Shown in pieces: positions 8,449-40,735 of a stretch of DNA of 64,000 bases. The DNA comes from Clostridia bacterium (GTDB lineage Bacteria; Bacillota; Clostridia; Oscillospirales; CAG-382). The stretch is from the NCBI GenBank assembly GCA_017560085.1, contig JAFYPA010000023.1:1-64000 (forward strand), given 5' to 3'. The number at the start of each line of letters is the position of its first letter. The stretch's first letter is position 1. The notes under the pieces are model-generated. The model saw nothing but the letters and a program-made list of their open reading frames with translations, did not search any database and was not told the DNA's origin. The translations under genes were made by a program, and so were the position numbers.

Positions 8449-8457
8449 GAGAGGAAT

Positions 8458-8990
8458 TGAGTGGACAGTGGGCAAGGGACAGTGGACAGGGAAGGTTGAT
8501 TCCTTCGGAATCTTCGATTTATTAAATTCAAATTGGTGTTTATCGGGCTGTTACGGATACGGACTGTAGGGAACGACCTATGTGTCGTTCCGTGGCTTGC
8601 CCTTATGAATCCGTTGCGGAAATGCGCCTTTTCTTGTAGGGGCGACCCCACGTGGTCGCCCGTTACCCTGCCATTTTGCGATGATTGAATTAGACAATCG
8701 ATTGTCTACAAATCAACATATACAAGGATTTGTGCACCCTCTAACCGTTGTACAAATTTCATCCGTTACGATTCCTACAGGCGGGCGACCACACGGGGTC
8801 ACCCCTACAAGGGGGTGTGGTGCATTGCCACAAACAAAGCGAAAACGACGAGCAACGGAACGACACATAGGTCGTTCCCTACAATCCACAACAGAGCGAC
8901 AAACCCAAATTTAAATAATCGCAGATTGCGAAGCAATCAACTTTCCCTGTCCACTGCCCCTTGTCCACTGTCCACTAAATTCCAATTTTG
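8458..8990. repeat. Composite MITE-like intergenic element bounded by inverted GTGGACA tracts
   Basis: The ends are inverted copies of an AGTGGACAGTGG-type tract (8459-8495 and 8941-8978), each leading inward to a palindrome (GATTCC-TTC-GGAATC at 8498-8512; GATTGC-GAA-GCAATC at 8924-8938). Inside are hairpin modules of the type GGGCGACC..GGTCGCCC (about 8640-8660 and 8782-8806) and GGAACGAC..GTCGTTCC (two copies). The interval 8498-8683 is repeated inverted at 40471-40655. No transposase is encoded, and short ORFs here are not credible genes. Confidence 0.8.
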
Positions 8991-10405: not shown

Positions 10406-10410
10406 TTTGA

Positions 10411-10530
10411 AATTCGGAATTCGGAATTTGAGCGATGTTTCCGAAGGAAACTCGACAAGAACGCTTGCGTTCTTTGAATTCGGAATTTTGGTGAAAATTT
10501 TTCGGAGAAAAATTTTTATCTATTTTAAAT
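10411..10530. repeat. 120-bp intergenic repeat, copy 1 (upstream of aspS)
   Basis: 117 of 120 bases match 25271-25390 by direct reading. It consists of an AATTCGG tandem tract, then three perfect hairpins: GTTTCC-GAA-GGAAAC (10437-10451), AAGAACGCTTGCGTTCTT (10457-10474) and AAAATTTTTC-GGA-GAAAAATTTT (10494-10516). It begins a few bases after the hisS stop codon and could end hisS transcription, though no clean T-tract terminator is seen. Confidence 0.85.
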
Positions 10531-23929: not shown

Positions 23930-23940
23930 TGATAGGAGTG

Positions 23941-24160
23941 CATAATGCTTAATGCATAATGCATAATGCATAATGCATAATCGAGGTTGATGCGGAGTTT
24001 GCTTGCAAACTCCATGGAAAATCTTTGATTTTCCGCAGCTTCGCAATCTTCAATTGGATTAAATTGAATTTGGAGTTGGCGTTGCGTTGAAAATTTAGCG
24101 ATAAACCTCCATTTAATCCTATTTTGCATTTTGCACTTTGCATTTTGCATTCGTTTTGAG
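23941..24160. repeat. Modular intergenic repeat between isomerase and phosphoesterase genes
   Basis: A tandem GCATAAT tract (23941-23981) is followed by the perfect palindromes GGAGTTTGCTTGCAAACTCC (23994-24013) and GGAAAATC-TTT-GATTTTCC (24016-24034), then a GATT/AATTTGG linker and a TTTTGCATTTTGCA-like tract ending just before the next ribosome site. Confidence 0.8.
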
Positions 24161-24167
24161 GTGCTTT

Positions 24168-25241
24168 ATGAACGATATAACCTATCTCACAAAAAACTAC
24201 GATAAGAAAATAGAAAAGATTAAGGCTCTCGGGGCTGATGTGAATTTCCTTTTTATTACGGATGTTCACAGCGGACTTAACCGTCAGTCGTCGCAGAATT
24301 CAAAGTACAGAAAGCCCGAGGATTTCGAGCTTTCGGAGAATGCGATTGAGGCTATGCGGTATGTTGCCGAGAGGTGCGATATTGACTTTGTGCTTTCGGG
24401 CGGTGATGTCGGTAACGATTATGCACCCACGCCCGAGCTTGTCCGCAAGGAGATTTCGGATTTTTACGATAACCTTTATTCGCTTCCCGTACCCGTTCAT
24501 TGCTGTGTGGGTAACCACGACGATGCGGTGGGCTGGTCTGCGGAAATCGGTCGTACCGTTAAGAATTATGCGATTTCTCCCTCGGAAATGCACGCTCTTT
24601 GTATGCGGAATAATCCGACGGACGAGAATTATTATTACTTCGACCACGAAAAATCGGGGCTTCGCTTCGTGATTCTCAATATAGCGGATCATCCGTACAT
24701 CCCCGACGAAAACGGCAACTATACCCACGGCTGGGGTGTGGATTTCAGCGAAAAGCAGCTTCTGTGGCTTGACAACGAGGCTCTCGTTACGGATAAGCCC
24801 TGCGTTATACTTTGCCATATGCCGATTTCCTGCAAGGGCATCTTCGGATGCGGCGGTTATCCCTACGGCTTCAAGGAAAAGAACGATTTCCCCCGTGGTG
24901 ACGAGATAATGAAGTGCATAAGGAAGCACGGCAATGTATGTATGTGGCTCGCAGGTCACGTCCACGCGGACAACCTTCGCTACGGTGACGGAGACCTTGA
25001 GGGTGTTCTCACCGTCACAACGGACGGCTCATTCCTCGACCCGCAGATGCAACCGCTTCCCGAGCGTGAATTCGGTGAAGAAACGGAAACCGTGTTCGAT
25101 GTGTTCTCCATAAAGGACAACTATCTGTACATAACCCGCTTCGGTGCGGGACTTGACAGGCAGGCGAATCTTTGTCACACGGCAAGGGTGATGCCGATGC
25201 AGATGGTGTGGAGAGCGGGGAAATTAATGCATAATGCATAA
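24168..25241 (+). CDS. Calcineurin-type metallophosphoesterase
   Basis: 357 residues from ATG 24168 (GAGGTG 5 bp upstream; the frame upstream is repeat sequence). The metal-binding motifs appear in order: DVH (32-34), GGDVGN (78-83), GNHDD (about 116-120), CHMP (about 217) and GHVH (about 262-265). It binds two metals and hydrolyses phosphomono- or diesters. No signal peptide is present. Its place in a sugar cluster suggests a sugar phosphate or a cyclic/glycerophospho substrate, but this is inference. Its last codons and stop are made by the GCATAAT repeat tract that follows. Confidence 0.88.
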   Translation: MNDITYLTKNYDKKIEKIKALGADVNFLFITDVHSGLNRQSSQNSKYRKPEDFELSENAIEAMRYVAERCDIDFVLSGGDVGNDYAPTPELVRKEISDFYDNLYSLPVPVHCCVGNHDDAVGWSAEIGRTVKNYAISPSEMHALCMRNNPTDENYYYFDHEKSGLRFVILNIADHPYIPDENGNYTHGWGVDFSEKQLLWLDNEALVTDKPCVILCHMPISCKGIFGCGGYPYGFKEKNDFPRGDEIMKCIRKHGNVCMWLAGHVHADNLRYGDGDLEGVLTVTTDGSFLDPQMQPLPEREFGEETETVFDVFSIKDNYLYITRFGAGLDRQANLCHTARVMPMQMVWRAGKLMHNA

Positions 25242-25390
25242 TGCATAATTGGATTGCTTCGCAATCTTAAAATTCGGAATTCGGAATTTGAGCGATGTTT
25301 CCGAAGGAAACTCGACAAGAACGCTTGCGTTCTTTGAATTCGGAATTTCGGTGAAAATTTTTCGTAGAAAAATTTTTATTTATTTTAAAT
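25232..25390. repeat. 120-bp repeat copy 2 with adjoining palindrome
   Basis: A GCATAAT tract and the palindrome GATTGC-TTC-GCAATC (25252-25266) lead into 25271-25390, which matches 10411-10530 at 117 of 120 positions, including the same two hairpins. The third hairpin keeps pairing except for a loop change. Confidence 0.85.
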
Positions 25391-33360: not shown

Positions 33361-33440
33361 TAGGGGACAGGAACTAGGAACTAGGAGCTAGGGAATGTTG
33401 GAAGCTTCGCTTCCTGCGATTGTTTAAATTGGAATTTAAT
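33361..33440. repeat. Left arm of an inverted modular repeat flanking the Nudix gene
   Basis: A CTAGGAA tandem tract (about 33369-33393) leads through GTTG to the palindrome GGAAGC-TTC-GCTTCC (33400-33414) and a TTTAAATTGGAATTT tail. Its inverted counterpart is at 33935-34015. Confidence 0.75.
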
Positions 33441-33454
33441 GTAGGTGTGAGAAA

Positions 33455-33931
33455 ATGGATATATCTTTCAAATCAGGCAATGAGAAATTCAATTATAGAG
33501 TTTGTGCCATAATGATTTCTGATGGAAAAATCTTGGCAATGCACGATGAACGGTCACCATATTTCTATCTTCCGGGCGGACGAGTAGCACTCGGAGAAAC
33601 TGCGGAAAGTGCCGTTGCCAGAGAGATTCAAGAAGAATTGGGTATCACACCTAAAATTGTCCGTCCTCTTTGGTTAAATCAAGCATTTTTTACAGAAGAT
33701 GTCGATAATCTCAATTATCACGAACTTTGCATTTACTTCTTAATGGATATCGCAGACACAGATTTATTGGTAAGAGGTAAACAATTCACTTCAAATGAAG
33801 GTCACCATACACATACCTTTGAATGGTTGGAGTTTGAAAGATTGAAAGATGAGTATTTTTACCCCCTGTTTTTGAAAAAGGATATTTTTAATCTTCCCAA
33901 TGTGTTTACTATCCGTACGGAAATTGAGTGA
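33455..33931 (+). CDS. Nudix hydrolase
   Basis: 158 residues with a complete Nudix box GGRVALGETAESAVAREI followed by QEELGI (GX5EX7REUXEEXGU), preceded by ERSPYFYLP. It hydrolyses a nucleoside diphosphate linked to another moiety; the substrate is not predictable. Codon use is clearly more A+T-rich than the neighbouring kinase and IolB genes, and the gene is enclosed by inverted copies of a modular repeat. It therefore looks like a passenger cassette inserted between the PfkB and IolB genes rather than a pathway member. Confidence 0.88.
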   Translation: MDISFKSGNEKFNYRVCAIMISDGKILAMHDERSPYFYLPGGRVALGETAESAVAREIQEELGITPKIVRPLWLNQAFFTEDVDNLNYHELCIYFLMDIADTDLLVRGKQFTSNEGHHTHTFEWLEFERLKDEYFYPLFLKKDIFNLPNVFTIRTEIE

Positions 33932-33934
33932 GTA

Positions 33935-34015
33935 AATTTCAATTTGAATAATTGAAGGAAACAAAGTTTCCAACCTCCCTAGATCCTAGTTCCTATTCCC
34001 TGTTCCCTATAAACA
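33935..34015. repeat. Right arm of the inverted modular repeat flanking the Nudix gene
   Basis: Inverse orientation of 33361-33440: AATTTGAATAATT tail, palindrome GGAAAC-AAA-GTTTCC (33957-33971), CAACC linker, then CCTAGTTCC/TTCCCT tract. Stem bases differ from the left arm but pairing is perfect. Confidence 0.75.
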
Positions 34016-34084: not shown

Positions 34085-34873
34085 ATGAACTACAAAAAGA
34101 CATACGTCCCCAAAGAGGGCTACACACCTATATGCAAAATCGGCGAATGCAGTCTCAAGAAGCTTGAGTTCGGCATCATCGAGCTTTCTCCCGCAAAGAC
34201 TCTCGAATTCTATACTGAGGACAAGGAAACCGCATTCATTATGCTTGAAGGTCACTGCAATGTCGAGGTAAACGGAGAAAAGTGGGAAAATATCGGCAAC
34301 AGAATGTCCGTATTTGAAAACAGAAAGGCTGAATCCTTCTATACGCCCCGCGAGCAGAAGCTCACAATCGAGGCTATTGACAACATCAAGATTGCAGTTT
34401 GCGCTACTCCCGTCGCGGAAAAGACAGAGCCTCAGGTGCTTCGTGAGGATCACGTTACACTCAAGCTTCTCGGCAGAGTTCCCTTCCAGAGAGAGACAAG
34501 CTTCATTATCGACGGCAACTCCAACGCAAAGGTGCTCACCATCGGTGAAGCATATCCCACAGAGGGCAACTGGGCAGGCTTCCCTCCCCACAAGCACGAC
34601 GAGGACAATATGCCCACGGAATGCATCGCTGAGGAAATTTACTACTTCCTCTTCGACCCCAAGCAGGGCTTTGCGGTACAGTGTCTGTACACAGCCGACG
34701 GCGAGATTGACGAGGCTTACAGAGTTAAGAACGACGAGCTCGTTGAGTTCCCGATAGGTTATCATTCCACTGTTTCCACACCCGGATATCAGACATATTT
34801 CCTCTGGCTTATGGCAGGTGATTATCAGGGCTTTAACAGAAGCAACGACCCCGAGCACGATTGGATCAAATAA
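34085..34873 (+). CDS. IolB/KduI-family isomerase (5-deoxy-glucuronate isomerase-like)
   Basis: 262 residues, double-cupin IolB fold. The metal site and signature are clear: FPPHKHDEDNMPTECIAEEI (about 175-194) and GYHSTVSTPGYQTYFLWLMAG near the C-terminus. IolB converts 5-deoxy-D-glucuronate to 2-deoxy-5-keto-D-gluconate in myo-inositol catabolism. No inositol dehydrogenase, IolE or IolD is visible here, so either those lie elsewhere or the enzyme serves another uronate-like intermediate. GGAGC lies before the ATG, and a palindrome overlaps its stop codon. Confidence 0.88.
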   Translation: MNYKKTYVPKEGYTPICKIGECSLKKLEFGIIELSPAKTLEFYTEDKETAFIMLEGHCNVEVNGEKWENIGNRMSVFENRKAESFYTPREQKLTIEAIDNIKIAVCATPVAEKTEPQVLREDHVTLKLLGRVPFQRETSFIIDGNSNAKVLTIGEAYPTEGNWAGFPPHKHDEDNMPTECIAEEIYYFLFDPKQGFAVQCLYTADGEIDEAYRVKNDELVEFPIGYHSTVSTPGYQTYFLWLMAGDYQGFNRSNDPEHDWIK

Positions 34874-34925
34874 CGCAAAGCGTTATTTGAAATGCAAAAT
34901 GCAAAGGGCAAAATGCAAAATTATT
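34867..34925. repeat. Palindrome overlapping the IolB stop codon plus ATGCAAA tract
   Basis: CAAATAACGC-AAA-GCGTTATTTG (34867-34889) contains the TAA stop at 34871-34873 and is followed by AATGCAAAATGCAAAGGGCA tandem words. Confidence 0.75.
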
Positions 34926-36509: not shown

Positions 36510-37040
36510 AAAATAATTCACAATGCACAATTGAAGATGGAAGCTTTGCTTCCTTCATTGAAATTCAAATTGTTGTTTATCGGGGAGTTTGTGCACCCTC
36601 TAATCATCGTATAAATTGCGATTATTGCGATTCCTGCTAACTCCCTCAGTCAGCTTCGCTGACAGCTCCCTCAAGAGGGAGCCATACTGTACCCCTGCTT
36701 TGGTACGGATATTCGAGTTTTCGCAATGCCTTATGCCATTTGGTTTTGCATATTGTTTTGGCTGTTGCAGAAGGGTGGACTTTTGTGTGGCTCCCTCTTG
36801 AGGGAGCTGGCGCCGTAGGCGACTGAGGGAGTTCTGCAGGAAGCACTCTCCTTGGCTTTTAAATGTTGTTAGAGGGTGCACCAACATCCCGACAAACCCA
36901 AATTTACCATTTTACCCTTTGCATTTTGCATTTCGGTGCAACGCACCGACCAAATCAAACGAAGATTCCGAAGGAATCAACCTCGATTAAGCATTATGCA
37001 TTATGCATTGTGCATTTTAAAGACCGCAAGCGGTCTAAAA
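36510..37040. repeat. Nested composite repeat between FGGY kinase and etfBA
   Basis: Outer palindromes: GGAAGC-TTT-GCTTCC (36539-36553), TCGGTGC-AAC-GCACCGA (36933-36949), GATTCC-GAA-GGAATC (36964-36978) and AGACCGC-AA-GCGGTCT (37021-37036, ending 4 bp before the etfBA ribosome site). GTGCACCCTCTAA words face each other at about 36590 and 36870. The core is the 191-bp element at 36641-36831. No gene is supported here. Confidence 0.8.
36641..36831. mobile_element. MITE-like element with CTCCCTCAGTC terminal inverted repeats
   Basis: Both ends read CTCCCTCAGTC ... AGCTCCCTCAAGAGGGAGCC, inverted. The middle of the left end is the palindrome GTCAGC-TTC-GCTGAC (36649-36663); the right end has a GTCGCC-TAC-GGCG-type stem instead. 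It is 191 bp with no coding capacity, a non-autonomous element of a kind frequent in uncultured Clostridia genomes. Confidence 0.75.
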
Positions 37041-40154: not shown

Positions 40155-40735
40155 GGGGGATATCGGTGCGGTGCACCGAAATGCAAAATGCAAAGGGCAA
40201 AATGCAAAATTGGGGTTTGTCGGGGAGCAATTCCCCTCATCCGTCGCCTACGGCGACACCTTCCCCCCCGGGGGGGGAAGGCTTGTTTGTGCCACCTTCG
40301 CTATTGTTTAGTGGCGCGCTATAATGGCTTCCCACGAGGGGGAAGCTGTCAGCGAAGCTGACTGATGAGGGGTAGCAGGAATCGCAATGGCTGTAATTTA
40401 TACAATGGATAGAGGGTGCACAAATCCTTGTATATGTTGATTTATGGGTGAATTTGTTGTATAACCCAACCATCGCAAAATGGGCGAGGTAACGGGCGAC
40501 CACGCGGGGTCGCCCCTACAAGAAAAGGCGCATTTCCGCAACGGATTCATAAGGGCAAGCCACGGAACGACACATAGGTCGTTCCCTACAGTCCGTATCC
40601 GTAGCAGCCCGATAAACACCAATTTGAAATCAAATGAAGATTGTGAAACAATCAACCAACCCTAGTTCCTAGTTCCTCTTCCCTAGCCCCTATAAATCCC
40701 AATTTTGCATTTTGCATTTTGCATTCTTCATTCCG
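40155..40735. repeat. Nested composite repeat upstream of the first SLH gene
   Basis: Contains TCGGTGC-GGT-GCACCGA (40163-40179), an ATGCAAA tract, a MITE-like unit at about 40229-40373 (palindromes GTCGCCTACGGCGAC 40243-40257 and GTCAGCGAAGCTGAC 40348-40362), an inverted copy of 8498-8683 (40471-40655), the palindrome GATTGT-GAA-ACAATC (40639-40653), a CTAGTTC tract and a TTTTGCAT tract. No gene is supported in 40123-40953. Confidence 0.8.

Follow-up and report, generated by a model that had tools for sequence, protein, structure and literature searches.

The locus lies at positions 36510-37040 of the window, by which we mean the whole stretch of 64,000 nucleotides analysed here (contig JAFYPA010000023.1 of a Clostridia bacterium). 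It begins with a module on the minus strand at 36514-36570, comprising a hairpin (36539-36553) and a short GTGCATT tract and scoring 59.2 bits with a covariance model, CM R1, that we built from 27 module copies. It ends with a module on the plus strand at 36947-37036 (65.8 bits), in which a hairpin (36964-36978) is accompanied by an ATGCATT array detected by TRF (36986-37016) and an outer hairpin (37021-37036). The MITE-like core between them (36571-36946, no strand assigned) was delimited from genome-wide core repeats and palindromes, and has exchangeable hairpins of its own at 36649-36663, 36665-36682 and 36790-36807. The genome-wide covariance search, which an earlier note on this DNA had proposed, recovered at least 146 modules in the 3.1-Mb draft genome. 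Neighbouring modules are mostly arranged as inverted pairs with the arrays outermost (37 minus/plus vs 6 plus/minus, one pair being counted twice), and we therefore treat 36510-37040 as one element with two mirror-image ends.

Modules in the window

Read in one orientation, a module runs from an AT-rich linker (AATTTnAATnnAAT) through a foot of GAA or GCA, a perfect hairpin, AAC(C) and a short linker into a heptamer array, whose repeated word can be ATGCATT, GTGCATT, TATTCAC, TAGTTCC, TGTCCAC or others. The hairpin loop is mostly GAA, on the strand that reads ATGCATT; beside arrays the loops on that same strand are GAA, AAA or GNA, closed by a C-G pair, and the reverse orientation is rare. The DNA mini-hairpin d(GCGAAGC) is unusually stable; in our folding calculations, the parameter sets distinguished neither the two strands nor, with few exceptions, one triloop from another by energy.

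The paired arrangement recurs along the window. At its left edge, a minus-strand module cut by the window boundary (1-35, 39.3 bits with CM R1, palindrome at 4-18) is the left half of an inverted pair, and a right module on the plus strand at 532-634, also matched by CM R1, has hairpins at 549-563 and 569-586 and a GTGCATT array called by TRF at 588-634. A second pair consists of a left module at 8455-8529 (minus strand, 63.9 bits) with a GTGGACA-type array and a hairpin at 8498-8512, and a right module at 8907-8978 (plus strand, 60.7 bits) with a hairpin at 8924-8938 and a TGTCCAC-type array. The core repeats at 8540-8900 and at 36620-36840 also swap stems while keeping the pairing, in the layouts TGTAGGG-stem...stem' and CTCCCTCAGTC-hairpin-GACAGCTCCCTC. 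The pair at 33369-34010 encloses a gene: the left module (33369-33431, minus strand, 57.7 bits) has an AGGAACT array and a hairpin at 33400-33414, the right module (33940-34010, plus strand, 50.2 bits) a hairpin at 33957-33971 and a CTAGTTC array, and between them a plus-strand gene (33455-33931) encodes a Nudix hydrolase of 158 aa (Pfam NUDIX, 2.3e-15). Inner distances of pairs fall into two clusters, one from -15 to -10 bp and one from 46 to 51 bp, unless the pair encloses cargo: a MITE-like core, the Nudix gene, or a gene for an acetyltransferase, a regulator or an EamA-type protein.

Other copies are less regular. On the minus strand, the module at 23939-24065 (47.2 bits) has an ATGCATT array detected by TRF (23939-23981), and its usual hairpin is interrupted by two others, at 23994-24013 and at 24016-24034; a hairpin is likewise nested within a hairpin at a locus outside the window (L042, 8182-8256). 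A further minus-strand ATGCATT array with a hairpin at 25252-25266 was found by TRF and CM R1 at 25225-25274. It adjoins the second copy (25275-25376) of a cassette with an AATTCGG tract, whose first copy, at 10406-10516 with no strand assigned, has hairpins at 10437-10451 and 10457-10474. At 34866-34921, on the plus strand, an 11-bp palindrome precedes an ATGCAAA heptamer tract found by TRF, and at 40163-40210, on the minus strand, a variant end with a hairpin at 40163-40179 and an ATGCAAA tract, recognised by TRF and core repeats, lies outside the core that is common to many copies. The last module listed, at 40622-40732 on the plus strand (50.9 bits), is a right module with a hairpin at 40639-40653, a CTAGTTC tract and an ATTTTGC array at 40702-40732 (TRF).

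Nearly all of the micro-palindromes listed in the earlier note were recovered where it had placed them. Counting perfect palindromes with a stem of at least 6 and a loop of 2-4, we found 58 in intergenic DNA of the window, against a mean of 9.4 and a maximum of 20 among 200 dinucleotide shuffles, so that their excess over shuffled intergenic DNA stands; within coding sequence the count was close to chance (54 vs 41.7 expected from shuffles). The recurring layout that had been described is present, in a form stricter and more directional than claimed, although some of the listed palindromes (10437-10474, 34866-34890, 36933-36949 and 40163-40179) belong to other layouts. The word tracts, given there as 6-8 bases long, are all heptamers, and a survey of 450 kb of this genome gave 54 tandem runs of period 7, three of period 6, none of period 8 and one of period 9. 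What the description had missed is the paired, element-like architecture and the link to S23p genes set out below.

Covariation of the hairpins

Stem sequences change freely while pairing is kept. Across 142 CM R1 matches and 816 pair cells, 99.1% were standard pairs and 218 were changed on both sides; none of 500 shuffles reached this level of covariation, and a slid control also fell far below it. Perfect hairpins made up 131 of 138 (three of the 138 being duplicates from overlapping stretches), and copies differed per site about as much in stems (0.37) as in linkers (0.40-0.41), whereas loops differed by only 0.06. This bears out the exchange of stems proposed earlier and rules out independent point mutation as its source. 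The same holds for the exchange of heptamer words: inner-core copies that are 94-98% identical over the matched core are found with differing hairpins and heptamers.

Nearly all stem types (17 of 18) are one base pair away from another type, and together they form a chain of single base-pair steps. G-U pairs, which are the usual intermediates when an RNA is under selection, occupied only two of the 816 cells. Because the stems covary and G-U cells are nearly absent, we read this as pairing kept by copying or selection at the DNA level, and the stem pattern points to DNA-level copying over RNA selection.

A related grammar is present in metagenome-assembled genomes (MAGs) of Clostridia from the gut, for the most part that of ruminants. 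A Clostridia MAG from buffalo gut (L127, around 343-600) has different hairpins in a row, with the word ATATCG between them.

Comparison with a sister species

All genomes used here are drafts of uncultured bacteria, and the comparison of orthologous gaps relied on one sister genome (G001), which is 84% complete. The Nudix pair (about 33375-33996), including its left module and cargo gene, is missing at the orthologous site in this sister, where the two flanking genes overlap. From this insertion-type polymorphism we conclude that the Nudix composite was probably inserted in the genome studied here. It was the one clean empty site found. The gap comparison had been suggested earlier as a way to catch stem replacement; apart from the Nudix site, orthologous gaps hold a different module or an unrelated insert in the sister, and one shared gap has a minimal doublet there, in which the hairpins differ and the arrays are of TAGGAAC. 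These differing inserts fit turnover of elements, but they fit rewriting in place as well.

S23p genes and heptamer arrays

Elsewhere in this genome, one inverted module pair (on C6) encloses a gene for S23p (PF05635), a protein that folds as a four-helix bundle and goes by the name '23S rRNA intervening sequence protein'. Two further S23p genes, on C109 and C78, adjoin modules, the latter on one side. S23p genes with identical modules were also found in Oscillospiraceae SIG622, next to the same neighbouring gene, and in genus g83. The window has no S23p gene (a single tblastn match, E=0.004, falls inside a coding gene), and the link to S23p therefore rests on other copies. In our sample of the order, S23p was present in all seven genomes with CM R1 matches, compared with 133 of 295 genomes overall; this 45% of sampled genomes mostly had no CM R1 matches, the model being fitted to this lineage, so that few matches elsewhere do not amount to absence.

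We then asked how often S23p genes stand beside heptamer arrays, counting a period-7 run when at least 12 of 14 positions agreed within 220 bp of the gene, and taking the best-ranked search matches as S23p loci. Such a run was found at 37 of 68 S23p loci of the order, on both sides at 25 of these, whereas other periods gave 0-1 and the same 68 loci gave two when scanned 500 bp further out. The left and right heptamers of a locus were reverse complements within two letters in 23 of 25 cases, against 40% between loci. These contrasts were devised after the first loci had been seen, and a set of 20 plasmid loci, mostly from cyanobacteria with a few from Bacteroidota, Proteobacteria and Gemmatimonadota, serves as an independent repeat: a period-7 run was present at 15 of the 20, with 0-3 for other periods and three further out. 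No period-7 array was found at the RAYT transposase loci tested (0/26 to 0/29), and CM R1 had no match at either the RAYT loci or the plasmid S23p loci. By eye, heptamers from different genera and phyla (L245, L252, L254, L260 and others) loosely fit the pattern YTRNN(Y/A) when read on the outward strand.

Nine of 60 S23p loci scanned are array-bearing elements at a tRNA-Leu gene, 53-88 bp from the tRNA 5' end, whereas none of 29 RAYT loci contained a tRNA. Direct repeats of 14, 19 and 23 bp lie outside the arrays of three of these elements (flanks scanned after the fact). Carriage by phages was considered and rejected, since a search of phage records for S23p gave no match, and viral contigs gave one. 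On cyanobacterial plasmids (L311, L312 and L317), S23p genes have cas6 and cas4, or cas10 and cmr3, as their neighbours on either side. Heptamer arrays frame the genes at L311 and L312, and this pattern suggests that they were inserted, not that they serve CRISPR.

In a tree of 84 S23p proteins, arrays accompany 50 of the 55 rows outside one supported clade and none of the 29 inside it. The genes of this array-less clade (L264, L265, L270, L275, L278-L284, L290, L293, L295 and L299) lie about 160-320 bp, in one case 474 bp, past the 3' end of a tRNA or tmRNA. At most loci inspected, the intervening gap is occupied by perfect micro-hairpins that are free in sequence, with a single spacer word, constant within a locus, between them (GTGAAG/CTTCAC, ATGATG/CATCAT, TGATAT/ATATCAC or TTTCAC), with a recurrent hairpin of GCGAG...CGAGCA type. 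Matches to the Gut-1 RNA of Rfam (RF01706) fall inside such hairpin arrays on the minus strand of two loci (L040, 663-739; L264, 1318-1387), and Gut-1 may thus be a piece of S23p elements.

Discussion

The explanation that we favour, with a probability of roughly 0.6, is that the modules are the terminal inverted repeats of small mobile elements, the full-length members of which carry S23p. The copies in the window would be S23p-less, having lost the gene or never had it, with the Nudix gene, MITE-like cores or nothing as cargo.

The nearest analogue of the micro-palindromes would appear to be the SDR hairpins in cyanobacterial heptamer arrays, reportedly described by Elhai and colleagues in 2008 as very small hairpin repeats with compensatory changes, located in heptamer arrays or minitransposons and sometimes nested in themselves. 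We know of no protein linked to SDRs. Like them, the modules have nested copies and a hairpin of 20-30 nt that shows compensatory change and lies in or next to a heptamer array. SDRs as described differ in sequence and phylum, and in the modules the hairpin has a constant place within an inverted terminal unit that is linked to S23p. The cyanobacterial STRR repeats are, as here, intergenic tandem heptamers. The view that no named family has this grammar thus holds for the exact grammar, although SDR and STRR repeats come close.

Intergenic tandem heptamers have also been reported from Xanthomonas (GGGAATC) and Nostoc (GGGGA(C/T)T) (PMC4692102) and from Beggiatoaceae (TAACTGA; PMC4679880), and the 70 and 75 mirror-image GGGAATC pairs counted per Xanthomonas genome were left unexplained (PMC4692102). 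Those studies deal with a single heptamer in each genome and interpret it as a regulatory repeat or a G-quadruplex, whereas here one genome has different heptamers at different loci, and they frame S23p or other cargo. The S23p protein of structure 2GSC is XCC0516 from Xanthomonas. In Coxiella, tandem GACAGAT heptamers immediately precede the S23p gene of the 23S rRNA intervening sequence (IVS) (PMC4990558). That is likewise a small element with inverted ends around an S23p gene, and inverted ends are present both in the window pairs and at S23p loci; however, most window copies have no S23p gene, which same-end copies elsewhere in the genome do encode, and they lie between protein genes, with other elements at tRNA-Leu, rather than inside a 23S rRNA gene. 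With MITEs the modules share terminal inverted repeats that enclose no transposase gene; the direct repeats of the three S23p elements at tRNA-Leu, none of them a window copy, may be target-site duplications of the MITE type. Homology has been reported between PF05635 and Avd of diversity-generating retroelements (PMC10053308), but no template or variable repeat was seen here.

How such elements might work can be outlined. S23p, supplied in trans, would be the mobiliser, and its substrate would be a single strand. In this intermediate the micro-hairpins would fold, and the two inverted heptamer arrays would form a panhandle, with any 7-nt register allowing them to pair. Synthesis along the folded strand could then re-copy one arm from the other, a templated correction that would let sequences drift freely under perfect pairing, keep the left and right arrays of one element alike and change array length in steps of seven; a reverse transcriptase would be our first guess for the polymerase. 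Since the direct repeats vary in length and S23p is related to Avd, an RNA intermediate is plausible but unproven.

Two other readings do without a mobile element. In the first, the hairpins would serve in RNA, as terminators, processing sites or small RNAs, and selection on that RNA would maintain pairing. This could account for the strong covariation, the single oriented loop type and the position near gene starts and ends. We consider this unlikely, since selection on RNA should have left many G-U cells and it leaves the mirror-image pairs with outermost arrays and the association with S23p unaccounted for; a known RNA family was rejected as a candidate, the window having no match to a curated family in Rfam. 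Likewise unlikely is replication misalignment on its own, in which intergenic hot spots would undergo slippage by 7 nt and correction of quasipalindromes. A 7-nt slippage preference was proposed earlier (cited in PMC4679880 and PMC4692102), and perfect palindromes one base-pair step apart do resemble templated correction, but misalignment alone fails on S23p genes framed by arrays in several phyla, on left-right heptamer identity, on the Nudix empty site and on at least 146 near-identical modules. Within the element model, it may still be the mode by which sequences drift.

The remaining readings accept mobility but assign it differently. Heptamer arrays could be pre-existing target sites, outside the element, for S23p genes and other cassettes. 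This would suit arrays that occur with other cargo or none and the inner core that sits in different arrays; it is rather improbable, given that direct repeats lie outside the arrays at tRNA-Leu and that left and right arrays mirror each other, as the halves of one split array would not. The modules could also be REP/REPIN-type elements, with the hairpin and its GAA foot as the recognition site of the transposase that moves them, a RAYT (Y1) enzyme as suggested in the earlier note. Like REPINs (PMC3116915), they are short, intergenic, non-autonomous hairpin doublets in mirror image, and the genome has an apparently intact RAYT-like gene with its HUH motif (L154, 2491-3027; 76.9 bits, just below the NCBIfam cut-off of 80) in a tight ruvC-ruvA-RAYT-ruvB operon. 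However, REPs have a conserved palindrome with a GTAG-type foot, whereas here long arrays accompany a GAA or GCA foot and stems whose free sequence speaks against recognition of the hairpin. A Y1 transposase is missing from four of five module-bearing g83 genomes (G128, G154, G207 and G270, some of the genomes being incomplete), the sister genome has one IS200-type match and a fragment, and the 29 RAYT loci have neither arrays nor modules. With Y1 absent from most relatives that have modules and RAYT loci free of arrays, RAYT is a very improbable driver.

Returning to S23p-carrying elements with the modules as their ends, we propose more tentatively, at somewhat below even odds, that they belong to a class of mobile elements spread across the bacteria, with S23p as its defining feature. 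The ends of these elements would be set by a constant architecture and not by a constant sequence: mirror arrays of any heptamer, often with free-sequence hairpins. They would spread through a folded single strand, probably RNA that another enzyme reverse-transcribes, and would explain heptamer arrays. Our literature search, which covered few subscription papers, found no published link between S23p and heptamer arrays in general. If true, the proposal would account for the arrays of cyanobacteria, xanthomonads and Clostridia and for rRNA intervening sequences, and it would advise caution over S23p near CRISPR genes (flagged in PMC10910872), which may reflect insertion and not function. Reports of heptamer arrays in bacteria go back decades without an agreed explanation, and the structure of S23p has been solved (2GSC, 2RLD) although its role is not known; if the arrays are the ends of S23p elements, both puzzles merge into one testable question. 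Such elements would have ends recognised by shape and period, not by sequence, and their hairpins would be natural records of hairpin-templated copying.
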